A DNA stretch of 36,282 nt from positions 1 to 36,282 of the forward strand of contig JANYBG010000238.1 in NCBI GenBank assembly GCA_025360865.1, given 5' to 3'. The translations under genes were made by a program, and so were the position numbers. The notes below the pieces were generated by a model. The model was not told where the DNA came from, ran no database searches, and saw only the letters and a program-made list of their open reading frames with translations. Below are positions 1-21,651 of the stretch, piece after piece (position 1 is the first letter of the stretch; each line of letters begins with the position of its first letter). This DNA comes from Pseudomonadota bacterium (GTDB lineage: Bacteria; Pseudomonadota; Gammaproteobacteria; Steroidobacterales; Steroidobacteraceae).

Positions 1-851
1 AGCACCACCAGCGGCCCGGTTTCGTGGCGCGAGGACATCATCAAGAGGTCGGCCTTCTCGATCACCGCGCGCAGCTGGCGCTGCGGCAAGAAACCCCGGA
101 ACCGCACTCGCTCCGACAATCCCAGATCGCGCGTCAGCGCCTGGATTTCGCCCCGCAAGGTGTCCTCGCCCACAATGTCCATCTCAAAGGCACAACCTGC
201 TTCGGCAAGCGCTGCTAGTGCGCGCAGCAGCGTGGCCTGATCCTTCACCCGATTGAGGCTCGCGACGTGAACCAGCCTGGCCGGCGCGCCCAGCCGCCGG
301 CGAATCGGCTGACGTGACGGCCACGTGAGCAGGTCGACGCCCAAGGGCACACGCTGGGCCGACACGCCCAGCGTTGAGATCATGGCGATCACGGGGGCGC
401 TAGCCGCCGTGACCGCGGACGCACCGCGCAGCACCACTTTTTCCCTCAGTCGGCCGCGCCATCTCAGGCTGTCGCCATAACCAATCTCGGGCAGCGCGAC
501 GAGTTCGCCACCGGCGACGTGAATGAGACTGGGGATCTTGAGCATTTTTCCCGCTGCCACAGCGATCAGGCCGCACGGACCCGACCAGATCGCGTGCGCG
601 ACGTCGAAGGGCGCGGCACGATGCTTAGTGCCTATCAGCCGCAGCGCGCGTCTATAGGTGTGCCGGACACCGATATTGTGAACCTGCGCGCCACCGAGAT
701 TCCAGTCAGCCCGTTGCGCCTCCTGATGCAAAGCGAAAACATGAACCTCGTGCTGAATCACCAGCCGCCTGATCAAAGCCAGCAGCGCGGGCACCACCCG
801 GTACTCGCCCGATCGATCAACGCCTCCAGGAACGATCAAAGCGATGCGCAA
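1..851 (-). CDS. Glycosyltransferase family 4, N-terminal part (cut by window edge)
   Basis: Reading the minus strand from a TTG at 851 gives about 283 uninterrupted residues that run off the window. The start LRIALIVPGG is a typical GT-B first strand. The acceptor half ends with a stretch on an HVAGGE motif. The donor half begins near RLVHVASLNRVKDQ, followed by EMDIVGED, RVRFRGFLPQ and a final MMSSRHETGPL segment, which matches the end of the GT4 nucleotide-sugar site (the conserved S-x-x-E-x-x-G/P-L region). The TTG start is inferred: an in-frame stop lies just upstream and a GAGAG sits about 8 bases before it. The gene follows the HprK-like gene by 10 bases, so the two are probably co-transcribed. 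The sugar donor cannot be told. A cytoplasmic role in glycoconjugate assembly is an inference. Confidence 0.8.
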   Translation of the reverse strand, partial: MRIALIVPGGVDRSGEYRVVPALLALIRRLVIQHEVHVFALHQEAQRADWNLGGAQVHNIGVRHTYRRALRLIGTKHRAAPFDVAHAIWSGPCGLIAVAAGKMLKIPSLIHVAGGELVALPEIGYGDSLRWRGRLREKVVLRGASAVTAASAPVIAMISTLGVSAQRVPLGVDLLTWPSRQPIRRRLGAPARLVHVASLNRVKDQATLLRALAALAEAGCAFEMDIVGEDTLRGEIQALTRDLGLSERVRFRGFLPQRQLRAVIEKADLLMMSSRHETGPLVV

Positions 852-2295: not shown

Positions 2296-3342
2296 ATGCC
2301 CGAAGTGAATACCCTCATCCGGCCGTATCGCCCCGGCGACGAACATGGCCTGGTCGAGCTGTTTGCGCGATCCTTCGGCCGTTCGACGACCGAAGAGCAG
2401 TGGGCATGGAAGCTCAAGTCCCAGCCCACCCCGGTTGAGAATGTATGGCTCGCACTATCAGCGGATAAACCCGTCTTCCAGTATGCGGGTATTCCGACCC
2501 GCTTCTGGCTGTCCCAGGGCCATGCCACCGCAATGGTGTCCGTCGACACGATGACGGCCCCGGAGTTTCGACGTCGCGGCCTGCTGACCAAGGTCGCGCG
2601 GCGCGTCTACACGGCGTGGCGGGACGCAGGCATCGCGTTTGTGATTGGCCTCCCCAATCAACAGTGGGGTTCGCGGACCGAAGCACTCGGATGGCGCGCG
2701 CTGTTCCCGCTTCAGTGGTTGGCACGCCCACTGCGACCGGAAGCGATTCTCGCTCGGCGACTGAAGATGCCAGCGCTGGCGCAGGTGCGGCTGCCTGCGG
2801 CGGCTTGGAACCGCTTTTTGAGGGCTCGCGTACGGCGAGATGAGCGGGTGCGAACCTCCGCGGTCGGGTATGCGGACGCGGTCTTCGATCAACTGTGGGA
2901 GCGCTGCAGGTCCGGCTGGTCGTTTTCAACGATTCGCGATCGCGCGTGGGTCAACTGGCGCTTTCTCGAATCGCCCTCGCGCCGCTATGTCGTAACTCTC
3001 GCCCGAGACGTGGAGGGGCCGTCTGGCTATTCCGCACACTATCTGACGGGCACAGGCACACACGCCTACCTCGCTGAGCTCTTCGTCGCCGACGAGGACA
3101 GCGCGACGCGCGAGACTCTGCTGTGCGACATGATGGAATCTGTGTTGGCGGCGGGTGCTGAGGCGGTGTTCACGTTGGCGATCCCAGGCACTCCGCTGTA
3201 CAACTGCCTGCGCCGCGCCGGCTTCCTGACGCGCAGGGAATTCACGGTTCAGGTCGTGCCACTCAACGTCTCGGTCCCGTTCGAGCGCATGCTTGATCCC
3301 GGCCAATGGAATCTCAGTGGCGCCGACTTTGATGTCATTTAG
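2296..3342 (+). CDS. GNAT-family N-acyltransferase
   Basis: A 348-residue protein. The opening IRPYRPGDEHGLVELF is the usual first strand and helix of a GNAT domain. PEFRRRGLLTKVARR at residues 89-103 matches the acetyl-CoA pyrophosphate loop (R-R-x-G-L). The length is about twice a single GNAT domain. The second half, with YLAELFV and AGAEAVFTLAIPGTPLYNCLRRAGFL, resembles a second GNAT-like fold, as in tandem-GNAT enzymes of surface-polysaccharide loci. It overlaps the PIG-L gene start by 11 bases, so the two are translationally linked. Deacetylase next to acyltransferase suggests an N-acetyl group is removed and another acyl group added. That pairing is inference. Confidence 0.75.
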   Translation: MPEVNTLIRPYRPGDEHGLVELFARSFGRSTTEEQWAWKLKSQPTPVENVWLALSADKPVFQYAGIPTRFWLSQGHATAMVSVDTMTAPEFRRRGLLTKVARRVYTAWRDAGIAFVIGLPNQQWGSRTEALGWRALFPLQWLARPLRPEAILARRLKMPALAQVRLPAAAWNRFLRARVRRDERVRTSAVGYADAVFDQLWERCRSGWSFSTIRDRAWVNWRFLESPSRRYVVTLARDVEGPSGYSAHYLTGTGTHAYLAELFVADEDSATRETLLCDMMESVLAAGAEAVFTLAIPGTPLYNCLRRAGFLTRREFTVQVVPLNVSVPFERMLDPGQWNLSGADFDVI

Positions 3343-4231
3343 ATCGCGATTGCGCCCGCTGAAGCGGGTGAGCGCTCGGATCATCGAATGCTCTTGGTGC
3401 GTCGGCTTTGGCGCCGCGGCGCGGCTTGTACGGCGTCGCGCAACGCGGTGGACCTCACCCGGAAAGCAGCGGGTGCTGGTCATCGCCCCGCACCCGGACG
3501 ATGAAGCCCTCGGCTGCGTCGGCACCATTCTGCTGCACGCGCAGGCGGGAGACCAGGTTTGCGTGGCCATCGCGACTGACGGTCGGCGCTCGGCCGTCAT
3601 CGCCGATGCCCAGAGCATGGCTCTGCAACGACGACGCGAGGCCGAGGACGCCGCCCGACTCATGCAGCTCACGCGCCTCGAATGGCTGGGCTTTCCGGAA
3701 GGCGACTGGAGCACCGAGGCACTCCGAGATTCGCTGACGTCTCTGATCACCGAGATCTCACCTGACATCATATACGCGCCGTCCAGAATCGATTTTCATC
3801 CGGAGCACTGGCGTGTGGCCAATGCGCTCGCCCTGGCGCTGGCGACGAAACCCCTGAGTGAAGCGTCCGTCCGGATATATCAGGTGCAGGTTCCCCTCAC
3901 ACCACTCATATCAAACCTCGTGGTGGATGTCTCCGCGCTCGCAACGAAATCCGCAGCGGTATTGCACGCGTACACGTCGCAGGCTGGCAGTTTGCAGTGT
4001 GCCTTCCGCCAACGACACTACAGTGCGCGCTTGCGCGGCGTTGGACGACAGGCCGAGGAATTCTGGGAGCTGCCAGCGAGCGGTTACGTTTACTTGCACC
4101 GCAGCCCTCCAGCTGAGTGGCCCAGCGCATTTCGTGGCTTGCGCCAGTTCCCAGCCACTGATCCGCTTGCATTTTTCATAGGCAATCGTGAGCGCCGTAG
4201 ACTGCGCTCACTGGCCGCGGCGTATCCGTGA
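3332..4231 (+). CDS. PIG-L (LmbE-like) family zinc deacetylase
   Basis: A protein of 299 residues from the chosen ATG at 3332. IAPHPDDEALG at residues 51-61 is the family zinc and catalytic motif (His54, Asp56, Asp57). HPEH at 156-159 supplies the further metal ligand. PIG-L enzymes hydrolyse N-acetyl groups from N-acetylglucosaminyl conjugates, as in GPI-anchor, mycothiol and butirosin-type pathways. An earlier in-frame ATG at 3293 is possible, but 3332 gives only an 11-base overlap with the acyltransferase stop and begins at a natural basic N-terminus. A second, differently built PIG-L protein is encoded at 5999. Confidence 0.88.
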   Translation: MSFRSRLRPLKRVSARIIECSWCVGFGAAARLVRRRATRWTSPGKQRVLVIAPHPDDEALGCVGTILLHAQAGDQVCVAIATDGRRSAVIADAQSMALQRRREAEDAARLMQLTRLEWLGFPEGDWSTEALRDSLTSLITEISPDIIYAPSRIDFHPEHWRVANALALALATKPLSEASVRIYQVQVPLTPLISNLVVDVSALATKSAAVLHAYTSQAGSLQCAFRQRHYSARLRGVGRQAEEFWELPASGYVYLHRSPPAEWPSAFRGLRQFPATDPLAFFIGNRERRRLRSLAAAYP

Positions 4232-4312: not shown

Positions 4313-5227
4313 TTACGGCGGCCCGGGAAGGCGCGGCCCAGGAAAGCACGCGAGCCGGGCGCAGCGCACGTAGTCGCGCCAAGTGTGGGTGCCCAAGGGC
4401 ACGCCAGTGAACAGAACCCTGGCGCCGGCGGCGCGCTGGCGCGCGCTGAATAAGTGCAGCGCAAGTCGTCCGCGCTGGTGCTGCATGAATCTGCGACAGC
4501 TGCGCGCTTGCGGCGCGGGGACTTTGCCCGCGCTCTCGTACGCGTCATAGGCGTCAAGCAGCTTCCGCAGGCCCGCCGCTCGACCAAGCGAGCCGGCGGT
4601 ATGCGTTATGCTCCTTGGGTCTCCAAGCTCGATCTCGCTCAAGGGCTCCGCCACGTAATAGAACGGGCCCTGGCAGCTGAGCCTAAACCACGCCTCGGTA
4701 TCCTCAGCGTAGCGGATGTCCTCCCGAAATCCCCCTGCCGCGAGGAACGCTGACGTGCGCAGCAAGACCGATGACGATGTCATCGCCATTTTGAAGCGCA
4801 GCCGCGCGGCGTGGTAATCCTCGAGCAGACCCGCGGTACTGACCCGGTTGACGTACGGGCGATCCAGAATTTTGATTTCGGTGAAGACCGCGACGATTTG
4901 CGGGGCGCTCCGGGTGGCCGCGATTGTCTTCTCAAGGAAGGTCGGCATCCAGACGTCATCGGCATCGAGCAACGCGACCCACTCGGTGTCCAAGAGTCGC
5001 ATTCCCAGGTTGCGGGCTGCGCCGGGACCACGGCACTCCGTGCGCACGACGCGCACACGTGGGTCTGCGATCCCCTCGACAAGAGCGGCGCCGTCATCGT
5101 TCGATCCGTCGTCGATCACTGTCAGACTGAAGTCCCGAAAGCTCTGTCCCAGCACGGATTCGACTGCCCGGCGGATGTACGCGCCCTTGTTATGAAGGGG
5201 AATGACCACGCCTACGGTGTCATTCAT
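4313..5227 (-). CDS. Glycosyltransferase family 2
   Basis: A 304-residue protein beginning MNDTVGVVIPLHNKG, the standard GT-A opening. VIDDGSNDDG at about 38-47 binds the nucleotide, and LDADDVW at 87-93 holds the DxD-type metal site. RYAEDTEAW later matches the ED catalytic-base region. No membrane segments are seen, so it is likely cytoplasmic. The ATG at 5227 lies 8 bases inside the end of the upstream methyltransferase gene, showing translational coupling. A longer frame reaching 5335 has no family sequence before this Met. The protein ends in a basic, proline-rich tail. It converges on the PIG-L gene ending at 4231. Confidence 0.88.
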   Translation of the reverse strand: MNDTVGVVIPLHNKGAYIRRAVESVLGQSFRDFSLTVIDDGSNDDGAALVEGIADPRVRVVRTECRGPGAARNLGMRLLDTEWVALLDADDVWMPTFLEKTIAATRSAPQIVAVFTEIKILDRPYVNRVSTAGLLEDYHAARLRFKMAMTSSSVLLRTSAFLAAGGFREDIRYAEDTEAWFRLSCQGPFYYVAEPLSEIELGDPRSITHTAGSLGRAAGLRKLLDAYDAYESAGKVPAPQARSCRRFMQHQRGRLALHLFSARQRAAGARVLFTGVPLGTHTWRDYVRCARLACFPGPRLPGPP

Positions 5228-5960
5228 GAGTGTTCGTCGAGCGCCACCACACCACAGTCCACGTGACGCCACCGAAGGAAAACGAATCTCGTCCCGCAAC
5301 CGGCATAGCGCGCAAGTACTGCTCGACCGTGTCACGCTCTCCCCCGAAATACGTCACGAGACACGCATTCGCGAGGCGCGACATCAACCGAAGTGTGGCG
5401 GGGATGTCGTGAAACAGGCTCAGCACCTCACACGCGGTGACGATGTCGAAGCGTCGACCCCGGTTGACCCAGTCCTGAGCGGCGATGTCGCCGACAACCC
5501 ATTCGACGCCCGGCACGCGCATAGTGGCCCGTTCGACTGCCGCTGCCACGACATCGATACCCGTGAGCTGGCGGCAGAGCTTGGAGAGATGCTCACTCTG
5601 GTGTCCCTCCCCGCAACCGATTTCCAGAATCGACGCAACTCGCGGGGCCGGCGCGATGAGCTGTCGCGCGAGAATCTCGTTGGTGCGGGCGAACCGGAAC
5701 TGTTCCTTCGCCGACGCCATGTTCCAGGGATCGGGCGTATGATAAAGGACCTCTAGACGCCGCCGTACCTCGAGCTGGGAGACCCTGCTTCGTGCGATCT
5801 TGATTCGCGCACGGCGAATGGCACGGGCGTACCTCCGCAACTTCAACGGCAGCTGCAAGGCTTGCGCGACCTTGATCAAAGTGCACCAACGGTACCTGAG
5901 CTCATGAACTCGCCGCAAGTCAGTCGCCGGATGGATCCCATGACGGGCGGGCAACAACAC
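5220..5960 (-). CDS. NodS-like class I SAM-dependent methyltransferase
   Basis: From a GTG at 5960 the protein has 246 residues. ILEIGCGEGHQSEHL at 111-125 is SAM motif I, with LTGIDV as the acidic post-I strand and RFDIVTACEVL as motif II. The stretch before motif I, YHTPDPWNMASAKEQFR, resembles the N-terminal signature of NodS, the N-methyltransferase acting on a deacetylated chitooligosaccharide. Since PIG-L deacetylases flank this gene, methylation of a freed sugar amine is a reasonable guess. The start is uncertain: an ATG at 6077 is in frame but overlaps the divergent gene at 5999 by 79 bases. The GTG at 5960 has GGGGA about 10 bases upstream. It overlaps the GT2 gene by 8 bases. Confidence 0.8.
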   Translation of the reverse strand: MLLPARHGIHPATDLRRVHELRYRWCTLIKVAQALQLPLKLRRYARAIRRARIKIARSRVSQLEVRRRLEVLYHTPDPWNMASAKEQFRFARTNEILARQLIAPAPRVASILEIGCGEGHQSEHLSKLCRQLTGIDVVAAAVERATMRVPGVEWVVGDIAAQDWVNRGRRFDIVTACEVLSLFHDIPATLRLMSRLANACLVTYFGGERDTVEQYLRAMPVAGRDSFSFGGVTWTVVWWRSTNTHE

Positions 5961-5998
5961 TTCCCGAGTCCCCGACGCAAGCTCTGTCGCGTGGCCAG

Positions 5999-7399
5999 AT
6001 GTTAACGATCGCTCTGGCGGTACTGGCGACGGCCTGGAGCCTTTGGTCGTTCCGGGCTCGCCGCTACCGCGCCACATTTCGAATCTCGGCGACGCGCGAT
6101 GACCTGTGCGTTTGCCGTGGTGCTCACGCGACCACCGCTGTAATCGTGGAAGCTGACGGCGTGTCCCTGCCGGCGGAAGCGCTGGGCGCTGGCGGCACCG
6201 CTTTCCTTGCTATGGACGTCACGGCGACGCTGCTGGGACAGATTCTCGATCCCTTCGTCGAGATCGAGCACGATGGCCTGCGCAGCCGCCAATATTACGA
6301 ACGCGGCGCGGCCGGCGTCAGATACCTGAATCTCTCATCCGCCATGCAGACCCCGGACGCGCGCTCTCCTAGAAAAGTGGTCCTGCGGGGCAATCATATT
6401 CGCTGGAAGCCCGCGGCCTCGCTCTTGGTATTCAAAGATCCTGAGATCGGCGCAGGCGACACACTCATCGTGGCACCACACCCGGACGATGCGGAGATCG
6501 GAGCATATGGGCTGTATTCACAGTGTCGATCCTGGATCGCCACTGTCTCCGCCGGCGAACGCAGTCCCACCAACTTGTCTTGGGTGGTCCCCAGCGAAGA
6601 CCGCTCGCGCTGGCTTGGGTCGCTCAGAGTCTTCGACAGCCTGACGATTCCCGCTCTCGGGGGCGTCGCACCGGAGAGGTGCGTGAACCTGGTCTTCCCA
6701 GACGCCCGTCTCAGCCAAATGCATGACAATCCCGCGGAAGCGGTCCGTCTCGCGTGTGAGGCCGACTTGCCGCGTCAACTATTGCGGGCTCGCAACCCTA
6801 TCCCGAGGTATCAGCGCGGCGCCCCGGATTGCACGTGGGCGGATCTCGTCATTGAGCTTCGCTCATTGCTGGAAAACGTGCGGCCGCGGACGCTGGTATG
6901 TACCCACCCACTGGTCGACCCGCATCTGGACCACGTATTCACCTCCGTGGCTTTGGCGGAGGCGCTGCGCGGCGCCTCGCATAGACCCGCCCTTGTGCTG
7001 CTTTACGTCGTTCACGCGCGCGAGGCTCCGATATATCCGTACGGGCCCGCCGATAGTGTGGTGTCCCTCCCGCCGTGGGAGCGCGCGGAATGGATCGCGG
7101 ACTCGATGTATTCCCATCCATTATCCGAAGCGACACGACGCGCGAAATTCTTCGCGGTGGAGGCCAGTCACGACTTGCGCAGCTATGCTCCGTCGCAACC
7201 TCGGACCGTGTGGCAGCTCGCGTTGACCCTGCGCCGGGAGCTGCTTGCGTTCCTGAGCGGCACGGCCCTCAATCCCACCGACTTCCTACGCCGATCTCCT
7301 CGGCCGAACGAACTCTACTACGTAGTTTCCGTCGAGGGATTCATCGAACTGTCGCAGCGCGCGCTGAGCGCGCGCAGACCGCACCGACAACAGCCGTGA
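5999..7399 (+). CDS. PIG-L family deacetylase with N-terminal membrane anchor and extra domain
   Basis: A 466-residue protein. Residues 1-16 (MLTIALAVLATAWSLW) form a short hydrophobic segment followed by arginines, suggesting a signal anchor. About 130 residues of unassigned sequence follow, partly of beta-strand character. The deacetylase domain starts near 155 with IVAPHPDDAEIGAYG (His161, Asp163, Asp164). A second metal motif, HPLVDPHLDH, follows near 304-313. The usual PIG-L enzyme is about 230-300 residues, so the front extension is notable. It is divergent from the NodS-like methyltransferase with only 38 bases between, and converges on a GT4 gene. The membrane anchor may place it on a lipid-linked intermediate; that is inference. 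Confidence 0.82.
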   Translation: MLTIALAVLATAWSLWSFRARRYRATFRISATRDDLCVCRGAHATTAVIVEADGVSLPAEALGAGGTAFLAMDVTATLLGQILDPFVEIEHDGLRSRQYYERGAAGVRYLNLSSAMQTPDARSPRKVVLRGNHIRWKPAASLLVFKDPEIGAGDTLIVAPHPDDAEIGAYGLYSQCRSWIATVSAGERSPTNLSWVVPSEDRSRWLGSLRVFDSLTIPALGGVAPERCVNLVFPDARLSQMHDNPAEAVRLACEADLPRQLLRARNPIPRYQRGAPDCTWADLVIELRSLLENVRPRTLVCTHPLVDPHLDHVFTSVALAEALRGASHRPALVLLYVVHAREAPIYPYGPADSVVSLPPWERAEWIADSMYSHPLSEATRRAKFFAVEASHDLRSYAPSQPRTVWQLALTLRRELLAFLSGTALNPTDFLRRSPRPNELYYVVSVEGFIELSQRALSARRPHRQQP

Positions 7400-7459: not shown

Positions 7460-8635
7460 CTAGCCGCGCTCACCGTCGCGTCGCGCAGCCGCCCCCTGGC
7501 CGACCGCCCTGTGGTGCGATAGGTTCTCGTAAACCGCTCGAAGCTTGTGTCCCACCGCGTGAAAAGACACCTCCGCGTCAAAATGGGCGCGCACCTGAAT
7601 GCGCAGCGCATTCCGAGCCTGCGTGGCGGTGCGCAGCAAAGCGTCAGTGAATGCGCGCGCGTCATCGCACGGCCACAAAGCACCCGTCCGTCCCGCCCCC
7701 GTAAGCGCCCGGAAGGATGGGATATCCGTCACGACGGGTGGCAGGCCGCAGGCGAGCGCCTCGATAACCGCACAGCCGCTGCCCTCGCGGTGACTGCCCA
7801 GCGCGAACACGTCCGCGGCGCGCATGAGCTGTTCGATTTTCTCGTGTGGAACCTTCCCCAACAAGTGGACCCGTCCGCGAAGCAACCGGTTCCCGTCGAT
7901 CACGCGCCGCACCTCCTCTTCAAGCGGCGCAGTCCCAAAGCAGCACCACAATTGCAGTTCGGGGAGTCGGCTCACGGCGGCGGCCACGCCAGCCAGCACC
8001 GTGAGGGGATCCTTGTTGGTGTCAAAATGGCCTACCCACAGCACAGCTGGGTCGCCGTGCACCTCGACCAAGCGGCGAGCCGCTGGCTGGTCGCCCGGCG
8101 TAAAGCGGCTTGAGCACTCCGGAATCCCGTGCACCACCGATTCCGAGAGCATTCCCGCCTTGATGAACGGTTTTGCCTGCTCCAGCGCGCAGAATGAGAC
8201 CGCCCCCGCGACCGCCAACCCGCGCCGGTATGGTCTCCGGCGCCAGAATCGGGGCAAGCCGCTCGCGTGATCCTGCAGGAAGATGGGGGTATTCGGCGCC
8301 AGCTTGGCTAACCCGAGCACCTCTTTGGGGAAGGATAGTCCGTGCACGTGAAACACGTCGGCATCCAGTCCGCGCATCAAGGCCGCGAATTCACGTCCGC
8401 TGGCGATCGCCGGCTCACCCGGCTCCGGTCGAACGAAATGGTAGTTCACGCCGTTGCGCGTCAGTCTGTCGGACCGAACGCATGCCTGCACCACTGATAC
8501 GCGCGCGCCGGTTTGTGCAACCATTTCCGCGCAGTCCACCAGCGGCCACCAGTCCTGCAGAATCTGGGAGGGACCGCGCACAGGATCGACGTGGAAACTT
8601 ATCTGCGCGACATGGAGAGACGTCGGGGGCGCCAT
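7460..8635 (-). CDS. Glycosyltransferase family 4
   Basis: A GT-B enzyme of 391 residues. LHVAQISFHVDP opens the N-terminal domain, DVFHVHGLSF ends an early strand, and VLWVGHFDTNKDPLTVL starts the donor domain. GRVHLLGKVPHEKIEQLM, then ALGSHREGSGCAVIEALACGLPPVVTD... (only partly quoted) carries the E-x7-E nucleotide-sugar motif: Glu in REGSG and Glu in VIEA. It is the last gene of the coupled radical-SAM operon. A TTG at 8647 directly follows the upstream TAG. The ATG at 8635, with GAGAG upstream, is preferred because the family sequence starts just after it. The likely role is glycosylating the operon product. Confidence 0.87.
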   Translation of the reverse strand: MAPPTSLHVAQISFHVDPVRGPSQILQDWWPLVDCAEMVAQTGARVSVVQACVRSDRLTRNGVNYHFVRPEPGEPAIASGREFAALMRGLDADVFHVHGLSFPKEVLGLAKLAPNTPIFLQDHASGLPRFWRRRPYRRGLAVAGAVSFCALEQAKPFIKAGMLSESVVHGIPECSSRFTPGDQPAARRLVEVHGDPAVLWVGHFDTNKDPLTVLAGVAAAVSRLPELQLWCCFGTAPLEEEVRRVIDGNRLLRGRVHLLGKVPHEKIEQLMRAADVFALGSHREGSGCAVIEALACGLPPVVTDIPSFRALTGAGRTGALWPCDDARAFTDALLRTATQARNALRIQVRAHFDAEVSFHAVGHKLRAVYENLSHHRAVGQGAAARRDGERG

Positions 8636-8647
8636 GGCCGCTCTCAA

Positions 8648-10162
8648 CTACAGACTGGACACGCGCGGATCTCGCAGGCGGATGAATTTTCTCGACAGGT
8701 CGAGCTCCCAGGGATGGCCGTAGCGTTGGTAGCGGTACCGCCAGGACGCGAGTGCGCTGAGCGTGGTCTTCCCCCACGATGGGGAGCGAATGTCGGTGAG
8801 GGTCGGGAAACGACAGCCCAGAACCGTCGTGAAGTCGCGTATTCGGCTGCGCAGGCGCTCAGTCAGCCACGGCACATCCGTGTGGCACCAGTACGCCAGC
8901 CACTGCGGCTGCGCCCATTGCTCGACTGACGCGGGGAACGCGAGGGCCGCGCCGTCCACATCACGCAGTGCGCTGAGTCCGCGCAATACCGCCGGGTCCG
9001 CCGGACCTGGCGGCGGAGGCAGCGGGGCGTAGATGTAGATCATGATCTCCGACTTTGGGTGAATGCGCTTAATGTGGCGAATGAACTCGAAAGTGCGCTC
9101 AGTCTCCCCTTCCGGATCCTGCGGCGGCGCCACCATGAACGACAGCTCGGGAATGACGCCCTGACTGCGGCACAGCTTCACGACCTCTAGGGTCTGATTC
9201 GAGCTGGTCCCCTTGCGCACGTCGTGCAGCAGTGAGTCGCTAGGGGATTCCGCGCCTATGTACGCCATCCTCAGCCGACTCTTCCTCACAAGAGACCATG
9301 ACCGCTCGGTGAGGTTTAAGAGCGCGTCCGAGCGCGCAAAGCACCACCAAGGAAGCTGGTGCTCCGCCAGAACCTCAAGCAGTGGGTCGGTCTCCTCCTT
9401 CCGATCGAAGAAGTTGTGGTCGAAGAACTGCACTGAGTCCGCGCCGAACCGCCTCTTGAGGTATCCCAAGTCCTGTTCAAGACGCGACGCCGGCGGCAAT
9501 GCCGTCTTGCCGCGAAACATCGCCGCGACCCCGCAGAAGGTGCAGCGAAATCGGCAGCCAATCGCCGCCTGATAGCCAGCTGTGCGCTGGCCCAGATAGG
9601 TCCTGCCAAGATACCGCTTGGGGTCGCCTAACCTGTCATACGGCAACCCCCCCGTGAAGGCGCCAACGGAAAAGATGCGATTCTTGTTGTGCACTATCCG
9701 ATCGCCTGAACGCCACGACAATCCGGCGATTGATTCGAGCGCGCTGGCGGCCCCTCCTAGGACCGCGTCGAGGACCTCGTGCAGCGTCTCCTCGCCCTGG
9801 CCCCTGATTGCGTAGTCAACGTACGCGCTCGCCAGGCACGCCTCGGCGCAGATAGTCGGGAAATGACCGCCCCAGATAATCGGTGTGCGCGGAAAGTTCT
9901 CCTTTATCGCCCGGGAGACCGCGATTGCCGTCAGCAGCTGCGGACCTCCCATCACGCTGACACCAACCGCACCGATCCCCCCGACAGCAATCGTCCGCAG
10001 CGTCGTCGAAATGAAGTCGCGATCGACGTTTCCGTCGACAATCGTCGAATCGTAGCTGCCATCGAGCGCCGCGGATAAGTTGAGGACCGCCAGCGGAAAT
10101 CGCGCGTTGCGCGCTGAAGTGATGGTCGGATTGATCAACAGTACACGTGGCGGTGCTGTCAT
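8648..10162 (-). CDS. B12-binding-type radical SAM enzyme (second of a tandem pair)
   Basis: A 504-residue protein. The N-terminal Rossmann-like region (about 5-150: RVLLINP, TIVDGN, GVSVMGG, IIWGGHFP, YAIRGQGEET) is that of the cobalamin-binding domain fused to radical SAM enzymes. The radical SAM cluster is C203-x3-C207-x2-C210 (GCRFRCTFC). The usual B12 His motif D-x-H-x-x-G is not visible: the site reads VDGNVDRD. Known members are methyltransferases, cyclases or oxidoreductases (for example BchE, HpnJ and Fom3 types), so the reaction cannot be told. Its ATG overlaps the previous stop by four bases (ATGA, 10159-10162), and the GT4 gene follows immediately. Confidence 0.9.
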   Translation of the reverse strand: MTAPPRVLLINPTITSARNARFPLAVLNLSAALDGSYDSTIVDGNVDRDFISTTLRTIAVGGIGAVGVSVMGGPQLLTAIAVSRAIKENFPRTPIIWGGHFPTICAEACLASAYVDYAIRGQGEETLHEVLDAVLGGAASALESIAGLSWRSGDRIVHNKNRIFSVGAFTGGLPYDRLGDPKRYLGRTYLGQRTAGYQAAIGCRFRCTFCGVAAMFRGKTALPPASRLEQDLGYLKRRFGADSVQFFDHNFFDRKEETDPLLEVLAEHQLPWWCFARSDALLNLTERSWSLVRKSRLRMAYIGAESPSDSLLHDVRKGTSSNQTLEVVKLCRSQGVIPELSFMVAPPQDPEGETERTFEFIRHIKRIHPKSEIMIYIYAPLPPPPGPADPAVLRGLSALRDVDGAALAFPASVEQWAQPQWLAYWCHTDVPWLTERLRSRIRDFTTVLGCRFPTLTDIRSPSWGKTTLSALASWRYRYQRYGHPWELDLSRKFIRLRDPRVSSL

Positions 10163-11664
10163 GAGAGCTTCTGGGCCGGGACCAACCAGCGCGTAAGGTG
10201 CATTTCGAGCGGCCAGCGGTAGGCGTCGTTATTGCAGCGGTAACGCGCGAGCTTCTGCAATAACCTCTTCGCCGGCGACGCTCGCTCCCATGCCAATTCG
10301 TGGAAGAACTTGAAGCGCTCGATAAGCTGGAACTTTTCAGGCGATACCCACGGGCCAGGTTCCCCGGCCACGTAGTCAAATTGCGCCCATGCGTCGAGCG
10401 TTTCCGGCAGGCGATAGCCTCGCTCAACCGCTTCCATGACAAGCGCGCTTCCTGGGTAGGGCTTGAAGTAATAGATTGGGGTAAGGAAATCCGGGCTCGC
10501 CGAACGTAGCTTCTTAGCGCAGTCGAGGGTCGCCTGAATACTCGCGTCACTCTCCGCCGGGAAACCAACGATGAAGGGAAAATGTCCGGCAATGCCGTAC
10601 TTGAGCATTTGATCCGCGGTACTGAAGACCTGCTCGATCTTGATGTCCTTGGCGATGCGCTTCAGCATCTCATCAGACCCGGACTCCACACCGACCAGCA
10701 ATCGGCGCAGACCCGACTGTTTGCAGCGCTCCCAAACCTCGTCCGGCAATCGCACGCCCTGATCCGCGCGCATGGTCGCAGCCCAAGTGATCTTCATTCC
10801 GGATTCGACGATACGTTTCGCGAGCGCATCGACCCGCTCACGCTTGGTGAAGAAAGTCTCATCCTGGAAATTGACGTCATTGAAATGGTATCGATCCCAC
10901 AGTTCCTTAAGCCTCAGGGCCATTCGGGTCGGCTCGAGTCCCACCCACTTACGTCCATAGACGAATGGATCCGAGCAGAAGGCACAACGAAAATTGCAAC
11001 CCTGCGACGAGATGTAGTCCAGCTGGCGCTTGCCCTTCAGCTCGAAGTAACGCTCGACGGGAATGAGACCATAGTCATGAGCACGAAACTTCTCGACGGA
11101 TGCGAGGGCCCTAGCGGGATTCTCCTGAATGGAGCCGTCGGCCAGACGGACCGTGCAACCAGCACAGTCGTCAAGAGGTCTACCGTCAGCGAGGCGCTGA
11201 ACGATGTCGACGAATGTCTCCTCGCCCTGCCCGCGGACAGTGACGTCCACGGCCGGTTCGACGAGGCACTCCCGCGCGAACAGCGAGGGATGCCAGCCTC
11301 CCCAGATCACGGGCAAGTCCGGGCGCGCGCTTTTGGCGATGCGCGAGATACGCAGCGCATCAGAAATCGGCGCTCCGGTGAGCACCGTTACTCCCAGGCA
11401 CAGTGCCCCCTTAACTTGTGACGCGATGGTCTCTTCCGCACGCGCATCCAGACGGCCGTCAACGATGACGACTTCATAAACATCCGGATCGAGCTCTGAG
11501 CCAATCGCGAGCAGCGCCAGCGGCATGGTGAAGAAGACCGCGCGCGGGTTGTACAGCACGACCTTCAACCGCGTGCCCGGGCTTCGCTGCCCCTCCCCGC
11601 TGTGGCCGTTGCCCTGCCCGTGACGCCCCTTGGAGCGGTCATGCCATGGAGCGAGCTCGGTCAT
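10159..11664 (-). CDS. B12-binding-type radical SAM enzyme (first of a tandem pair)
   Basis: A protein of 501 residues from the ATG at 11664. It has the B12-binding-type fold (LKVVLYNP near 33-40, VVIVDGRLD, GVTVLTG, VIWGGWHPSLF, VRGQGEET near 143-150) followed by the radical SAM cluster C223-x3-C227-x2-C230 (GCNFRCAFC) and a TIM-barrel region (DVNFQDETFF, LLVGVESGSDEML, FIVGFPAES). The His of D-x-H-x-x-G is replaced (VDGRLDA), as in many such enzymes that bind cobalamin without a protein His ligand or do not bind it at all. The start is fixed by a four-base ATGA overlap with the amidohydrolase stop; an ATG at 11676 would overlap by 16. The first 30 residues are polar and probably disordered. 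Confidence 0.9.
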   Translation of the reverse strand: MTELAPWHDRSKGRHGQGNGHSGEGQRSPGTRLKVVLYNPRAVFFTMPLALLAIGSELDPDVYEVVIVDGRLDARAEETIASQVKGALCLGVTVLTGAPISDALRISRIAKSARPDLPVIWGGWHPSLFARECLVEPAVDVTVRGQGEETFVDIVQRLADGRPLDDCAGCTVRLADGSIQENPARALASVEKFRAHDYGLIPVERYFELKGKRQLDYISSQGCNFRCAFCSDPFVYGRKWVGLEPTRMALRLKELWDRYHFNDVNFQDETFFTKRERVDALAKRIVESGMKITWAATMRADQGVRLPDEVWERCKQSGLRRLLVGVESGSDEMLKRIAKDIKIEQVFSTADQMLKYGIAGHFPFIVGFPAESDASIQATLDCAKKLRSASPDFLTPIYYFKPYPGSALVMEAVERGYRLPETLDAWAQFDYVAGEPGPWVSPEKFQLIERFKFFHELAWERASPAKRLLQKLARYRCNNDAYRWPLEMHLTRWLVPAQKLS

Positions 11665-12848
11665 GCCGCTCTCCAAGCCGCCTGAGACAATTCCAGACCA
11701 TCTTCGCGTGCCGCCGCCCCGGCCACGAGATCAGCCAAGGATCGCTCCAGCACCTTCGGTTTCCCGTCGACGCGCACTCCCGCCCAATGCGCGGCCGGAG
11801 CGACACCTTGCGCGTATTCCTCGTCTCCGTATAAGGCTATCCCATCGACCATAACCAAGAGGACCTCCGAGCGCGATAGGCGTGCTAGCTCCGCACCGGC
11901 CGGCAATATCAGAACGTCCGCGAGTCCTCCCGCGTGCAGCGCGCCGCGACCCGGCACTCCGAGAAGTCGCGCGGCATCGCGAGTCACCAGTGACTCGAGC
12001 GCTTCCGACCCGACCACGCCAAGCTGCGCCACCAGACGTAGTTCCTCCAACAAGTCGCGCGCCCCGCTCAAGCGCGAGTCAGTTCCAAGCAGGACCCGCC
12101 CGAGCCCGATGAGATCGCCGACCTCCGCGGTGGCCCCGAAAAGGCTCAGGTTCGAGGAGGGACACCAGATAAGCCCCGCACCCGCCGCGCCCAGGCGCGC
12201 ACGCTGGGACCGGCTGAGCGCGATACCGTGCACGATCAGGGTGTTAGCGCCGACACACCCGAGCGCGTCCAAGCGCTCAAATTCGTTCGCCGCCTCCTCG
12301 TCAAGACCTTCGGCGGCGTGAACAACCCAAGGCCTGTCAATCGGCGTCGACCGATATGAGCGGCGCACAGGGTCCTCACCGTCAATGTACAACGAATGCG
12401 ACCAGCCGTACTCGCTGATAACACGCGTGGGGAATTGCGGTCGTGAGAGATACGGATAGAACCGGTCGTGATGAGCGACTGTCGTCACGCCGCTCAGCAG
12501 GTTCTTCATTCCTCCCAGTAACAGGCGCTCATCGCGCGGCACGGCGACGCTCGCCCTGAAAGTCTCGTCAGTGGTCTTAAGCGTATCGACATCCGCGATC
12601 CAATCGCGGACGTGGCGATAGCGATTGTTAAATTCTGGACGCGGCAGGCTATTGAGTTGCAGATGATCGTGCGCGTTAATCAAACCAGGCAGCACCCGAG
12701 CGCCGCGCAAGTTAACTACCCGGTCGCGCGACTGTGGATTACCGCCTACCGCGGTGATCCGTGCCCCGGAAACGCGGAGCGTCGAAGGTGCCCGGGCACC
12801 CATGTCCGCGTTGATGAAAGTCACGCCGCCGACTTGCCGATCGCTCAC
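11661..12848 (-). CDS. Amidohydrolase-superfamily metal hydrolase (deaminase-like)
   Basis: A 395-residue enzyme with the metal ligands of the AtzA/SAH-deaminase type in order: HDH at 60-62 after PGLINA, HAAEG at 177-181, VHGIAL at 206-211 and LLGTDSRLSG at 254-263. Relatives hydrolyse or deaminate purines, triazines, SAH, methylthioadenosine or 5'-deoxyadenosine. The GTG start overlaps the methyltransferase stop (GTGA, 12845-12848), and the stop overlaps the next radical SAM start (ATGA). Being embedded among three radical SAM enzymes and a methyltransferase fits either a step on the product or clearing of 5'-deoxyadenosine and SAH. Both are inference. Confidence 0.85.
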   Translation of the reverse strand: MSDRQVGGVTFINADMGARAPSTLRVSGARITAVGGNPQSRDRVVNLRGARVLPGLINAHDHLQLNSLPRPEFNNRYRHVRDWIADVDTLKTTDETFRASVAVPRDERLLLGGMKNLLSGVTTVAHHDRFYPYLSRPQFPTRVISEYGWSHSLYIDGEDPVRRSYRSTPIDRPWVVHAAEGLDEEAANEFERLDALGCVGANTLIVHGIALSRSQRARLGAAGAGLIWCPSSNLSLFGATAEVGDLIGLGRVLLGTDSRLSGARDLLEELRLVAQLGVVGSEALESLVTRDAARLLGVPGRGALHAGGLADVLILPAGAELARLSRSEVLLVMVDGIALYGDEEYAQGVAPAAHWAGVRVDGKPKVLERSLADLVAGAAAREDGLELSQAAWRAA

Positions 12849-13606
12849 GCTGAAGCCTTACGCGCCCGCACCACCAACACGAACGGCCACCCGCTCCAGC
12901 GTCGATAGAAGGCTTCGGATTGCGGGAAAGCCTCACAAAGTTCGTGGCCAGCACGCAGTTCCTCGACGGCCTCAATATTCAGGCCGGCCGCCGCCGCGGC
13001 CTGGCGTTGCGCCACCACACTATGGTTGTGGTGCGGAACGGCGTAGCTACGCTGGTGCTCGTCGGTGAACTTGCGGCTGTGTCCAGCGCGCGCCGCCTCT
13101 GGATGGAAATCCGAATACAGCAGGACCCCCCCGGGCTTGAGGACGCGCGCAATCTCGGCCATCCACCGGTGAATATCCGGAGCGTGACCCGCGGCGAGAC
13201 CCGAAACGATTACATGGAACGACCCCGCCGCGAAGGGCAATTCCAGCATGCTCGCACGCACGCGGTGCACCATGCCGACGTGACTGAGCATGGCAGCCGA
13301 AAAATCCAGCGCGACGACCTGAGAGGCGTTTGAGTCAGCGAGCAGTTTCGCATAGCGTCCGGTGCCACAGGCCAGGTCCAGAGAACGAAGGCCTGCTACG
13401 TCTGGCCACAGTCGGATCATGGCGTCCTGCTCGGCCCGCATCAGCGGGTTGTGAGCCACGGGCGGATAGGTGGGAGCCCATCGCTCGTAGGCGTCATGCG
13501 TGCTGATGAGGGGGGCTGCAGTCACGAACTGCTTCACGACGGCGACGCCATCGGCGCGTTCATGGCGCAGATCGCCGCCAGCGCGGGCCAATCGAGCCTC
13601 GCTCAT
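12845..13606 (-). CDS. Class I SAM-dependent methyltransferase (BioC/UbiE-like)
   Basis: A 253-residue protein. LRSLDLACGTGRYAKLL (73-89) is motif I, VVALDFSAAML (97-107) the acidic strand, LPFAAGSFHVIVSGL motif II and IARVLKPGGVLLYSD the strand-5 motif typical of small-molecule methyltransferases. The ATG at 13606 lies 47 bases inside the upstream radical SAM gene and has GAGAG about 10 bases before it. A GTG at 13537 is an alternative. The stop overlaps the amidohydrolase start. The acceptor (O, N or C) cannot be told. Confidence 0.87.
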   Translation of the reverse strand: MSEARLARAGGDLRHERADGVAVVKQFVTAAPLISTHDAYERWAPTYPPVAHNPLMRAEQDAMIRLWPDVAGLRSLDLACGTGRYAKLLADSNASQVVALDFSAAMLSHVGMVHRVRASMLELPFAAGSFHVIVSGLAAGHAPDIHRWMAEIARVLKPGGVLLYSDFHPEAARAGHSRKFTDEHQRSYAVPHHNHSVVAQRQAAAAAGLNIEAVEELRAGHELCEAFPQSEAFYRRWSGWPFVLVVRARKASA

Positions 13607-14630
13607 CCGCCGGATCTCTCCACATCGAACAGACGCACCGCGCGCATTCAGCGCGCTTTCCGGCGCGGATATCCGCGCGCAGCCCCTTCATCTGCTCGGT
13701 GCTTAGCGCGCTGAGAAGATCCGGCGGGGTCGCGGCGCCGCGCGGTCCCGGGATAAAGAAGCAGGGACTCACATACCCCTTCGCATCCATAACCGCAGAG
13801 AATTCCGGGGCATTGCATCGCACGGGTGGGAACTGCCCTTCACCCAAGGTCGCGGCGAAGTACTGGTGGATCCGCCGCAGCTTTTGCGGACTCTCCGCAA
13901 CGAACATGGACTGAAAATCGCCGGCACAGTCACGCTCGAGGCAAGATAGCAGCTGCTCCAGAACCGGCAGATCCTCCAAGCTCAATGCTACGTCGGCAGC
14001 GAAATCGTCAGTGCGCCCGAACGCGTGCGGATTGGCGACGTCAACGGCGAGAAACGAAACCTGTGCCGCCCCGAGCTGATGCGCAAGTTCAACGAACTTC
14101 GGCAACTGACGGTAGTTGGCGCGTTGCAGAGTGACTCGCACAGTGACCTCAGCACCGGCGTCCGTCGCGGCACGCACGCCCTCGCACACCTTGTCGAACG
14201 CGTCCAGACCTCGAATCGCGGCGTACGTGTCGCGATCGGTGCCATCGAGCGAGACGGTGATGGTGTCGAAAAGATCGGCGGCGCGACGCGCGTGCTTGGC
14301 AAGGGACAGGCCGGAGGTAAGCAACCACAGCCGCAGGTCATGGGCGGCCAAAAGCTCCGCGATGAGAGGCCATTCCGGGTTGAGCAGAGGCTCCCCTCCC
14401 GAGAGCAAGACGGTCCCGGTCTCCAATGCAGATAAATCGGGCAGCAAGGCCCGCACAGCATCGAGGTTCATATCGGCGCGTCCGTGTCGCCAATAGTCGC
14501 ACGTGACGCAGCGTGAGTTGCAGCGCTCGGTTAGGTACAGCGTCACGAGCGGCAGACGCTCCAGCGCCGCGGAGTGATTGAGTGCGCTCGCGAGGCGCGC
14601 CCCGCTTAAACCCGTCGCGGCGACTGTCAT
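13560..14630 (-). CDS. Radical SAM enzyme with SPASM/twitch-type C-terminus
   Basis: A 356-residue protein. The radical SAM cluster is C37-x3-C41-x2-C44 (RCNSRCVTC). VLLSGGEPLLNPEW is the GGE SAM-binding motif, and TVSLDGTD is a typical barrel strand. The C-terminal part has the auxiliary-cluster pattern: Cys in RCNAPE, GYVSPCFF, and CARCVC near the end. This resembles enzymes of the MoaA/PqqE/SkfB and AprD4-like groups, which act on peptides or sugars. It is the first well-supported gene of the operon. A small ORF ends in an ATGA overlap with its start. In a sugar-rich locus either a sugar dehydratase or epimerase, or a RiPP-maturase function, is possible. Confidence 0.9.
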   Translation of the reverse strand: MTVAATGLSGARLASALNHSAALERLPLVTLYLTERCNSRCVTCDYWRHGRADMNLDAVRALLPDLSALETGTVLLSGGEPLLNPEWPLIAELLAAHDLRLWLLTSGLSLAKHARRAADLFDTITVSLDGTDRDTYAAIRGLDAFDKVCEGVRAATDAGAEVTVRVTLQRANYRQLPKFVELAHQLGAAQVSFLAVDVANPHAFGRTDDFAADVALSLEDLPVLEQLLSCLERDCAGDFQSMFVAESPQKLRRIHQYFAATLGEGQFPPVRCNAPEFSAVMDAKGYVSPCFFIPGPRGAATPPDLLSALSTEQMKGLRADIRAGKRAECARCVCSMWRDPADERGSIGPRWRRSAP

Positions 14631-15748: not shown

Positions 15749-16897
15749 GTGACGGAAATTTCTGACTTGGACGCATCTCTGGACGACGCTCTGACGCGTC
15801 CCCGCGTGAGAAGTCGCGACGTTCCCGCGATGTCCCGGGCCGCGATTCCTTGGTCGGAAGCCATTTGGGCGCATGCGCAGGCGAGCGGTCCGCTGGCGGT
15901 CACCGACGCGGAGATCGCGCTCGGAGTCGCGATTGCATCGCGGCCGGTATTCATTTGCGGCGTGCACCGCAGCGGTACCACCCTGATGAGAAACCTCCTC
16001 GACAGTCACCCAGCCCTCGCGGTGCTTCCCTCGGAGGGAACGTTTGCCACGAGCTTCGAACCGAAGATGCGCGAACTAGGGCGCGATCAGCGACTCAGTT
16101 TCGTTGCTTGCGAATGGCTGAGGCGACTCGCCAACCCAACTAACCAGGCCCCGTACTGGCTGCTGGGCCGCACTACGGGCTCGCATTCGCCCTACGTCGC
16201 GTTCGGCCGCGCTCTGATGGCCTGGTGGAACGCGCTCGAGTCGCGGTTCGGGAGGGACGCACCGTCGTGGCCTCTGGCGGCAGTGGCCCTCGCGTACGCG
16301 CAAGTCCACAGCGGCATCTCCGCGGGTCTGCGGATGTGGGTAGAGAAGACTCCGACGAATGAACGGCTCCTTGAGCGGCTGTGGCGAGAATTCCCGGAAG
16401 GCAAAGTCATTCATGTCGTGCGTGATCCGACCGCCGTATTTGCCTCGAACAAGGCGAGTTCGAGCAGCTGGCGCGAGCGCGCACGCTTGGCCGACAGAGT
16501 TCTTCGCGACCTCGACGTGTCATTTCGGACCGCGCAGGAGCAGAGGCGAGCGGGCACCTCCGCTCGCTACCAGCTCGTTCGCTTCGAGGATCTTCTGGAG
16601 AACACCGAAGCCACGCTCGGACGCCTTGCGACCTTCCTGGACATCGAGGCACTTCCCGTGCTCATGTGCCCGAGCATCGCCGGGCTGGAGGCAGTGAGCA
16701 ACAGCTCGTACGCGGCTGACGGCCCGCCCGGCCGCATAGAATACAGCGTCTCCGGACGTCCTCGGTCACTGACGCGACTCGAGTGCGCACGGGTCGCCAT
16801 GGCATGCGGGGAGGCTGCCGCAGACCTCGGCTATAACATCGACCGCGTTGCTCCTTGGCGGCGCACATTCCTACGCTTCACCTTCGGAAGCCGCTGA
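15749..16897 (+). CDS. PAPS-dependent sulfotransferase
   Basis: A 382-residue protein. FICGVHRSGTTLMRNLLDSH (68-87) is the 5'-phosphosulfate loop. VIHVVRDPTAVFASNK, near residue 220-236, is the 3'-phosphate motif with the conserved Arg and Ser. LVRFEDLLENTEATL follows, as in family Sulfotransf_3. It transfers sulfate from PAPS to a hydroxyl or amine, probably on the glycoconjugate made by this locus. GTG at 15749 is the only usable start after the in-frame stop at 15683. No signal peptide is seen. A piece of this gene (16443-16640) is duplicated near 18.1 kb, part of it inverted. Confidence 0.88.
   Translation: MTEISDLDASLDDALTRPRVRSRDVPAMSRAAIPWSEAIWAHAQASGPLAVTDAEIALGVAIASRPVFICGVHRSGTTLMRNLLDSHPALAVLPSEGTFATSFEPKMRELGRDQRLSFVACEWLRRLANPTNQAPYWLLGRTTGSHSPYVAFGRALMAWWNALESRFGRDAPSWPLAAVALAYAQVHSGISAGLRMWVEKTPTNERLLERLWREFPEGKVIHVVRDPTAVFASNKASSSSWRERARLADRVLRDLDVSFRTAQEQRRAGTSARYQLVRFEDLLENTEATLGRLATFLDIEALPVLMCPSIAGLEAVSNSSYAADGPPGRIEYSVSGRPRSLTRLECARVAMACGEAAADLGYNIDRVAPWRRTFLRFTFGSR
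16443..16573 (+). repeat. Direct repeat, original copy (inside sulfotransferase)
   Basis: 131 bases that recur in the same orientation at 18082-18210 with about five substitutions and a two-base gap. The segment encodes the region after the 3'-phosphate motif of the sulfotransferase. Confidence 0.85.
16577..16640 (+). repeat. Inverted repeat, original copy (inside sulfotransferase)
   Basis: 64 bases that recur as reverse complement at 18207-18270 with four mismatches. It encodes VRFEDLLENTEATLGRLATF of the sulfotransferase. Confidence 0.85.
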
Positions 16898-21454: not shown

Positions 21455-21651
21455 AGCTGCCTCCGTATTGTTGTTCTTTGGCAGCCTGCGAATCACTGGG
21501 TGAACTCTCGCACTGCGCACCGGGCTCACTTGCTGGCGCGGTTCTCTTGATTATGGGTTGCCGCCGAGCCTACCACGTTCAGTGTGGCCGTCGCCTGCGC
21601 GCCTAGGCGAACCGGTGGCAGTCACCGCCGGCATTATGGGCAAGCCGTCGC

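Follow-up and report, generated by a model that had tools for sequence, protein, structure and literature searches.

The window, that is, the whole stretch of DNA analysed (36,282 bases), contains an operon of six tightly coupled genes, which are all read from the minus strand in its list of open reading frames (Table 1). The window makes up the entire contig G000:C178, so the cluster is cut at position 1. The original prediction of six genes without gaps, several of them joined by GTGA or ATGA, was confirmed by the coordinates: the junctions from the first gene to GT4a measure -47, -4 (GTGA), -16, -4 (ATGA), and 0 nt, with 4-nt stop/start overlaps at two of the five and gaps at none. The gene families were also as named, and Pfam gave Radical_SAM, Methyltransf_11, Amidohydro_1, B12-binding plus Radical_SAM twice, and Glyco_trans_1_4. 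Promoter and terminator scans returned site counts below the mean of shuffles.

Table 1. Features of the six-gene operon (7460-14630) and its flanks in the window
Feature	Positions	Strand	Description	Evidence
GT4b	3..851	-	GT4 glycosyltransferase, cut by contig end; recurrent partner	PF00534 5.1e-12
HprK-like kinase	862..1962	-	Recurrent partner	PF07475 1.5e-6, under cut-off
GNAT acyltransferase	2296..3342	+	Variable decoration gene	PF13527 1.3e-11
PIG-L deacetylase	3293..4231	+	Variable decoration gene	PF02585 5.2e-26; 32% relative in G010
GT2 glycosyltransferase	4313..5335	-		PF00535 1.5e-27
NodS-like N-methyltransferase	5220..6077	-	Variable decoration gene	PF05401 1.2e-15
PIG-L-like protein	5999..7399	+	Variable decoration gene	PF02585 8.6e-10; 44% relative in G1070
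GT4a	7460..8647	-	GT4 glycosyltransferase	PF13692 (Glyco_trans_1_4) 5.5e-22
rSAM2	8648..10162	-	B12-binding radical SAM enzyme	PF02310 6.4e-15; PF04055 5.5e-14
rSAM1	10159..11676	-	B12-binding radical SAM enzyme	PF02310 1.7e-13; PF04055 2.6e-19
AH	11661..12848	-	Amidohydrolase of ATZ/TRZ deaminase type; half of exchangeable cassette	PF01979 (Amidohydro_1) 2.4e-13
MT	12845..13606	-	Class I methyltransferase; half of exchangeable MT-AH cassette	PF08241 (Methyltransf_11) 1.2e-19
First rSAM	13560..14630	-	Radical SAM enzyme, SPASM/twitch-like, with auxiliary-cluster cysteines near the C-terminus; opens the operon	PF04055 2e-18
Sulfotransferase	15749..16897	+	Variable decoration gene	PF13469 4.7e-27

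The first gene had been described as a SPASM-type radical SAM enzyme. Its C-terminus follows the pattern C-x12-G-x4-C ... CxxCxC, and since the five cysteines (C272, C290, C329, C332, and C334) are invariant in 20/20 aligned orthologues, an auxiliary-cluster domain of the twitch/SPASM-like kind is likely, if unproven, although the Pfam SPASM profile (PF13186) was not matched in the window's copy. C37, C41, and C44 are likewise invariant in the 20 aligned orthologues, and CxxxCxxC occurs in all listed copies (20/20). The nearest solved chain is BlsE of blasticidin S biosynthesis, a distant match of 71 bits limited to the radical SAM core, and no cytosylglucuronate synthase was identified. The structure model of this enzyme (mean pLDDT 57.9) was too poor for use.

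Both rSAM1 and rSAM2 of the window scored above the Pfam cut-offs for PF02310 and PF04055, and CxxxCxxC was present in every listed copy of rSAM1 (16/16), rSAM2 (23/23), and rSAM3 (13/13), a third B12-binding enzyme. An orthologue of rSAM3 lies with two methyltransferases near the end of another contig, C253. A TTG start makes rSAM1 505 aa long against 484-529 aa read for full-length orthologues, so its true start is unsure. C-methylation, which the original prediction raised as a possibility, is one of several reactions of B12-binding radical SAM enzymes. Among the NCBIfam matches listed, the best were HpnJ for rSAM1 (120.6 bits, cut-off 577.6) and the ladder-lipid B12-rSAM model for rSAM3 (89.9, cut-off 360); the AprD4 model gave rSAM1 60.8 bits against a cut-off of 500, and no score for the named equivalogs (HpnJ, AprD4, and others) exceeded its cut-off. 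The nearest solved chains, all distant, are AprD4, then 9ccb (a radical SAM protein), then OxsB for rSAM1, and TokK, then AprD4 for rSAM2.

In AH, the residues H60, H62, H177, E180, H207, and D257 are invariant in 12/12 aligned sequences (13 AH were found; G197, with odd gene ends, was left out of the alignment). Judged by these residues, whose catalytic and metal roles (HxH, HxxE, H, D) we take to be those of the amidohydrolase family, AH is assigned to the ATZ/TRZ-type deaminases within the amidohydrolase superfamily. Its profile matches include 8-oxoguanine and MTA/SAH deaminases, and it falls in no named equivalog such as 8-oxoguanine deaminase (best listed 63.5 bits, cut-off 532). The AH structure model (mean pLDDT 60.7) was too poor and was kept out of the evidence; its best Foldseek matches came mostly from the deaminase/triazine-hydrolase group, but with a TM of about 0.4 and an rmsd of about 15 A.

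Pfam also confirmed the flanking genes as predicted, namely the two PIG-L proteins, the NodS-like methyltransferase, the GNAT protein, and the sulfotransferase, the last of which belongs to a protein cluster common to the window, G035, and G296. The prediction of a sulfated product with PIG-L, NodS, and GNAT decoration concerns a locus-specific variable part outside the shared core. We take this variable part to be like Nod-factor decoration by a deacetylase, a NodS-type N-methyltransferase, an acyltransferase, and a sulfotransferase; it differs in that the GNAT protein is not NodA, NodC was not noticed among the annotated genes, and the decoration genes are not conserved across related loci. 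The flank predicted as HprK-like scored below the Pfam cut-off (28.3 vs 33.3 bits), but it retains a Walker A motif and recurs in related loci, with homologues in 18/29 contexts including that of the window.

Other neighbors recurring across contexts alongside this kinase are glycosyltransferases, an MsbA-like exporter, an NTP_transf_5 protein, and rSAM3. GT4a lies directly 3' of rSAM2 in 15/27 family contexts, and the GT4b orthologues of related loci stand at 51-69%. Among the matches listed for the exporter (G010 copy), the MsbA model came first and PglK fourth, both under cut-off. When single proteins were searched against the PDB, the HprK-like protein had one weak match and the NTP_transf_5 protein had none. 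A heme-motif lipoprotein/porin-like pair adjoins several loci.

The gene order recurs in other genomes. The five genes from the SPASM-like rSAM through MT, AH, and rSAM1 to rSAM2 follow one another in 6 loci, and the full order with GT4 last was found in 2. The SPASM-like rSAM and rSAM2 occur together in 23 loci, 15 of which bear rSAM1; this count excludes G1117, G033, G1067, and G1083, whose stretches, at contig ends, are without the SPASM-like rSAM. Overlapping or near-overlapping genes are retained in most recurring loci. The cluster is mostly confined to one proteobacterial family: rSAM2 was detected in 27/217 genomes of the window's own family (26 of which provided contexts, G019 being left out with rSAM2 split across two contig ends), in 1/369 genomes of a class-wide sample (the window's own only), and rarely in order and phylum samples. 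No plasmid carriage was detected when 72,556 plasmid records were searched with rSAM2 by tblastn (E 1e-30). Because the order is conserved, the genes are coupled, and the neighbors recur, the predicted dedicated pathway is supported. In agreement with the original prediction, no characterised pathway with the same order was recognised among the titles and abstract openings of freely available journal articles, and the searches found no characterised relative.

The principal new finding is that a cassette in the middle of the operon has been exchanged. Between the SPASM-like rSAM and rSAM2, MT+AH stand in 10 of the 23 loci and an unrelated methyltransferase with an NPPF motif, invariant in 12/12 copies, in 12; both were found in none, and neither is there in 1. 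The exclusion has a hypergeometric probability of 9.6e-6 on the assumption of independent loci, and in G258 a divergent MT+AH pair lies elsewhere in the locus. Among the nearest families of the NPPF methyltransferase are HemK2/MTQ2 and PrmC-type methyltransferases; it scored 79.2 bits with the HemK2/MTQ2 model TIGR00537, slightly below the cut-off of 87, and the G1104 copy matched Pfam MTS with 62.4 bits. Since no match in the NCBIfam lists, each limited to the best 25, is above its cut-off, no substrate of the pathway is tied down.

Both cassette forms occur at apparently the same site within one genus, g22, whose loci G1081, G1082, G296, and G1080 are united in the trees of the SPASM-like rSAM (100/99) and rSAM1 (95/93; the fragment G1117 left out) and parted by cassette in that of rSAM2. 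On the rSAM2 tree (computed with G033, G1067, and G1083 omitted and the G001 row cut to its last 500 residues; the rSAM2 alignment leaves out G001 for odd gene ends), the cassette label needs only 2 changes, a number as low as this being reached in 0/500 shuffles, and the split is also seen with G010, whose gene crosses a stretch boundary, left out. The label is not clearly clustered on the SPASM-like rSAM tree (shuffles as low in about 103/500) or the rSAM1 tree (about 117/500). An AU test rejected the 10 AH loci as a single SPASM-like rSAM clade (p 8.2e-6), as it did with 6 of the 10 (p 4.4e-4; G032, G197, G1071a, and G1072 left out); the full test and its tree, in which deep forks are mostly not resolved, comprised 10 AH loci, 12 NPPF loci, and G258, with L040 omitted. 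Independent swaps are few, at least two on well-supported branches of each tree. The two cassettes are mutually exclusive and have been swapped, which could instead reflect recombination of allelic blocks and not functional equivalence.

Based on these observations, we propose, with a probability of roughly 0.4, that the operon forms the central part of a dedicated cluster whose product, a glycosylated small molecule or a glycolipid, would be multiply methylated and exported, a glycoconjugate being plausible as product class. A core unit would be built or C-modified by the first rSAM and the B12-binding enzymes, and the exchangeable cassette would tailor a single sp2 position that bears nitrogen. 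In the form present in the window, AH would hydrolytically remove an amine, followed by methylation of the product by MT; in the other form, the HemK2/MTQ2-like NPPF methyltransferase would retain the nitrogen and methylate it, both cassettes presumably acting at one position. GT4a (and GT2/GT4b) would glycosylate the product, which may be phosphorylated and extended by the HprK-like and NTP_transf_5 proteins, exported by the MsbA-like ABC protein, and decorated by locus-specific genes, in the window those for PIG-L, NodS-like, GNAT, and sulfotransferase proteins. The kinase and nucleotidyltransferase-like step has a precedent in PsmK/PsmN of pseudomycoidin and paeninodin, which are reported to add a phosphate and then a hexose (PMC9266682).

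Radical SAM enzymes catalyze reactions that are difficult to achieve in other ways, and this conserved, probably exported pathway includes as many as four of them when rSAM3 is counted. The interchangeable cassette versions hint at the cassette's role, and the natural swap between MT+AH and the NPPF methyltransferase is a ready-made experiment: a comparison of products between the two locus types should reveal the position targeted by the cassette and give a clue to the core structure. More doubtful is an extended form of the proposal: the exported product, built by radical SAM enzymes around an amino-heterocycle (nucleoside-like), would represent a glycoconjugate class not described before, the exchange would toggle one ring position between N-methylamino (NPPF) and oxo/O-methyl (AH+MT), chemotypes would vary between close relatives, and the heme-motif lipoprotein/porin-like pair would be the outer-membrane partner.

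A soluble aminoglycoside- or nucleoside-type antibiotic, whose sugar rings the radical SAM enzymes would deoxygenate, decarboxylate, or C-methylate before PIG-L deacetylation and coupling by GT4, seems rather unlikely. BlsE, AprD4/OxsB, and TokK/AprD4, the distant nearest chains of the first rSAM, rSAM1, and rSAM2, are in its favor, as are the gentamicin and apramycin pathways (GenK, GenD1, AprD4), where B12-binding or AprD4-type enzymes and N-methyltransferases act on aminoglycosides (PMC5461906). However, aminotransferase and cyclitol synthase are absent among the subset of neighbors scanned with Pfam, and the MsbA-like exporter and O-acyltransferases better fit a lipid-linked or envelope glycan. 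Modification of a hopanoid- or isoprenoid-like lipid, subsequently glycosylated and flipped, is likewise improbable: it would agree with the HpnJ and ladder-lipid matches, the exporter, and a fatty-acid hydroxylase in G032, but those scores are far under their cut-offs, and it is not evident what an amidohydrolase or an NPPF N-methyltransferase would do to a hydrocarbon.

A bottromycin-like or lasso-like RiPP pathway is quite unlikely. The bottromycin cluster, as described in PMC3622962, has three radical SAM genes, an amidohydrolase, an O-methyltransferase, and a transporter; the kinase and nucleotidyltransferase-like pair of the lasso peptides is another likeness, and an S8 protease occurs in 6/29 contexts. 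The bottromycin type is disfavored by YcaO in 0/14 carrier genomes and by a search of 29 contexts in which no conserved precursor peptide of 20-120 aa was found, and the clusters differ further in their glycosyltransferases, HprK-like, and NTP_transf_5 proteins. No family of 20-120 aa reading frames recurred in more than 4/29 contexts, and those listed resemble shadows of other genes (BLAST at E 1e-4 with low-complexity filtering, for frames no more than 2 kb from the span of mapped genes and overlapping these genes by up to 30%, a search that misses very short or very divergent peptides). Against the lasso type, PqqD was found in 13/14 genomes but no PqqD-like RRE (B1) lies on the cluster stretches, several of which are cut by contig ends; only the G002 copy is on the cluster's contig, some 38 kb away from the stretch. 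Lasso B1/B2/C and asparagine synthetase are absent among the neighbors scanned, and several radical SAM enzymes set these clusters apart. Chance juxtaposition of unrelated enzymes, which the rarity in order, class, and phylum samples might suggest, is refuted by the recurring gene order, the 23 joint loci, and the mostly kept overlaps. Scores with the SynChlorMet cassette models also stayed below cut-off (ScmF 73.3 vs 400, ScmC 22.1 vs 125).

Some loci hold incomplete gene sets, which speaks against the proposed pathway. The Roseateles MAG L040 has AH, followed by GT4a, without MT, rSAM1, or rSAM2; a stretch of 35 kb in G296 is without HprK-like, NTP_transf_5, or rSAM3 genes; and the Anaerolineae MAG L041 carries AH alone.

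The gene cluster around the six coupled genes is real and conserved. All six open reading frames of the original prediction were confirmed on the minus strand at their coordinates; from gene 1 to gene 6 the junctions measure -47, -4, -16, -4 and 0 nt, and the Pfam matches are, in gene order, Radical_SAM (SPASM-like rSAM), Methyltransf_11 (methyltransferase MT), Amidohydro_1 (amidohydrolase AH), B12-binding with Radical_SAM twice (rSAM1 and rSAM2) and Glyco_trans_1_4 (glycosyltransferase GT4a). The first gene, predicted to be SPASM-type, gave no Pfam SPASM match but carries five C-terminal cysteines (C-x12-G-x4-C ... CxxCxC) that are invariant in 20 of 20 aligned orthologues. Mapping with tblastn covered 29 contexts, 27 from 26 genomes of the same family plus a Roseateles MAG (L040) and an Anaerolineae MAG (L041), the latter with AH alone. 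SPASM-like rSAM and rSAM2 co-occur in 23 of these, most commonly as SPASM-{MT-AH or NPPF_MT}-(rSAM1)-rSAM2, where NPPF_MT is an alternative, NPPF-motif methyltransferase. The predicted five-gene order recurs in six loci (G000, the window, with G010, G1070, G1081, G1082 and G1123) and the full six-gene order in G000 and G1123; of the 27 family contexts, 15 have GT4a directly after rSAM2 and the other 12 an ABC, GT2, c13MT or HprK-like gene there. The PIG-L, NodS-like, GNAT and sulfotransferase genes that were also drawn into the predicted pathway are present in the window but lie outside the shared core.

The main new result is the exchange of a cassette within this cluster, which makes its chemistry testable. 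Among the 23 loci, MT+AH stands between SPASM-like rSAM and rSAM2 in 10 and NPPF_MT, HemK2/MTQ2-like with an invariant NPPF motif, in 12; none of the 23 holds both, and in G258 SPASM directly adjoins rSAM2, with a divergent MT+AH pair elsewhere in the locus. Another genome, G1071, has two paralogous loci (L083 and L104), one per cassette type. The chance of zero overlap is 9.6e-6 assuming independent loci; the loci are related, and trees were therefore needed to judge the exclusion. On the rSAM2 tree, made with G010 and in an earlier version without it, the cassette label requires two changes, both forced by well-supported branches, and 0 of 500 shuffles were as low. The SPASM-like rSAM tree requires six (two forced; 103/500 shuffles as low), a clustering hardly clearer than chance, and a single clade of the 10 AH loci was rejected there by the AU test (p 8.2e-6); the rSAM1 tree requires four (two forced; 117/500). 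Thus, rSAM2 follows the cassette, whereas for SPASM-like rSAM and rSAM1 this is not clear.

Genus g22 provides the clearest case: G1081 and G1082 read SPASM-MT-AH-rSAM1-rSAM2 while G296 and G1080, with rSAM1 ahead of the methyltransferase, read SPASM-rSAM1-NPPF_MT-rSAM2. Upstream gene families are identical in G1081, G1082 and G296, and the G1080 contig stops two genes upstream. The four loci are united by the SPASM-like rSAM (100/99) and rSAM1 (95/93) trees but on the rSAM2 tree each groups with further loci that carry its cassette; in g22 at least, SPASM-like rSAM and rSAM1 therefore appear to have stayed in place and the cassette, with its rSAM2 allele, to have moved.

In AH, H60, H62, H177, E180, H207 and D257 are invariant in 12 of 12 aligned sequences and form the ATZ/TRZ-type deaminase residue set, and the best profile matches in the PDB include 8-oxoguanine and MTA/SAH deaminases. 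NPPF/NPPY methyltransferases target planar nitrogens, among them those of amides and the exocyclic amines of bases. In the AH+MT form, AH would deaminate and MT methylate; in the other, NPPF_MT would N-methylate, so that either cassette would decide what becomes of a single nitrogen-bearing sp2 position. Such a shared target would explain why the two never co-occur in these loci. The B12-binding radical SAM enzymes may perform C-methylation or rearrangement; the nearest solved chains, all distant, are AprD4, 9ccb and OxsB for rSAM1 and TokK and AprD4 for rSAM2.

As far as the searches show, the cluster is uncharacterised. Among the NCBIfam matches listed, none scores as high as its cut-off. 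By analogy with pathways described in parts of PMC5461906 and PMC3715490, an aminoglycoside- or nucleoside-type pathway is possible. A bottromycin-type pathway shares the mix of radical SAM, amidohydrolase and O-methyltransferase, according to a passage of PMC3622962, but a search of 14 carrier genomes for YcaO gave none, and no precursor turned up. A lasso peptide is disfavoured; the cluster stretches contain no PqqD-like gene.

Recurrent partners include the HprK-like kinase (18 of 29 contexts), a third B12-binding radical SAM enzyme, rSAM3 (14), and NTP_transf_5 (13), all lower bounds with many contexts cut by contig ends, together with an MsbA-like ABC exporter, the glycosyltransferases GT4b and GT2, acyltransferases and the methyltransferase families c4MT and c13MT. 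For a kinase and nucleotidyltransferase-like pair that adds phosphate and then hexose, pseudomycoidin is a precedent, described in excerpts of PMC9266682. A lipoprotein/porin-like pair with CxxCH motifs in both members ("porin" being a 16-bit match) adjoins the cluster in several genera and the Roseateles MAG, which suggests that it travels with the cluster. Several loci have an ECF sigma factor and an S8 protease at their edges, possibly a dedicated regulator. The window spans the whole of contig C178 (36,282 bases), one of 257 in the genome, so position 1 truncates the locus; contig C253 of the same genome holds orthologues of rSAM3, c13MT and c4MT close to its end. The four proteins of L113, also from this genome, agree in sizes and order with the c64/c65/c29/c37 run beside rSAM3 in G001 and G155.

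The distribution is narrow. Within the order, 4 of 296 genomes hold AH (E 1e-20), the window's own included, and rSAM2 (E 1e-60) was found in 27 of 217 family genomes (7 of 25 genera) and, in an even class sample, in 1 of 369, the window's own. In the phylum sample, rSAM1 (E 1e-60) gave 3 of 398, its own genome and two at only 35% identity, and SPASM-like rSAM (E 1e-40) only its own (1/398). The pathway is therefore patchy inside one family and very rare beyond. Named AH relatives came from four loci in MAGs that carry the labels Gammaproteobacteria, Proteobacteria SZAS-87, Roseateles and Anaerolineae, the first two already among the family loci; a search of 72,556 plasmid records with rSAM2 gave no match.

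Coordinates of the operon and of neighbouring features
Sequence	Position	Feature
Window	7460-14630	Six-gene operon
Window	17635-18132	Transposase (DDE_Tnp_1) fragment, lying just beyond the cluster
Window	18422-23841	1035-aa protein adjoining a TIR-TPR protein
Window	26307-29180	MFS + HlyD (EmrAB-like) efflux pair
Window	30867-32303	PAP2/vanadium-haloperoxidase-like protein
L113	506-6654	Four proteins (824, 438, 209, 457 aa) adjoining rSAM3
L031 (and related loci)	12201-14140	CxxCH heme-motif lipoprotein and porin-like protein
L042	1718-2548	ECF sigma factor/S8 protease, locus edge
L083	17544-19061	ECF sigma factor/S8 protease, locus edge
L086, L088, L040		ECF sigma factor/S8 protease, locus edge

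GC3 in the window is mostly 0.79-0.87 for genes at 18-30 kb and falls to mostly 0.70-0.76 at 1-17 kb, a pattern resembling that of an acquired island. The 1035-aa protein, without a match in the Pfam search, and its TIR-TPR neighbour gave only weak TPR and SAVED-TIR matches in PADLOC and are possibly a defence or signalling pair. The efflux pair is 71-76% identical to one in G010 that sits some 11 kb away from the same cluster.
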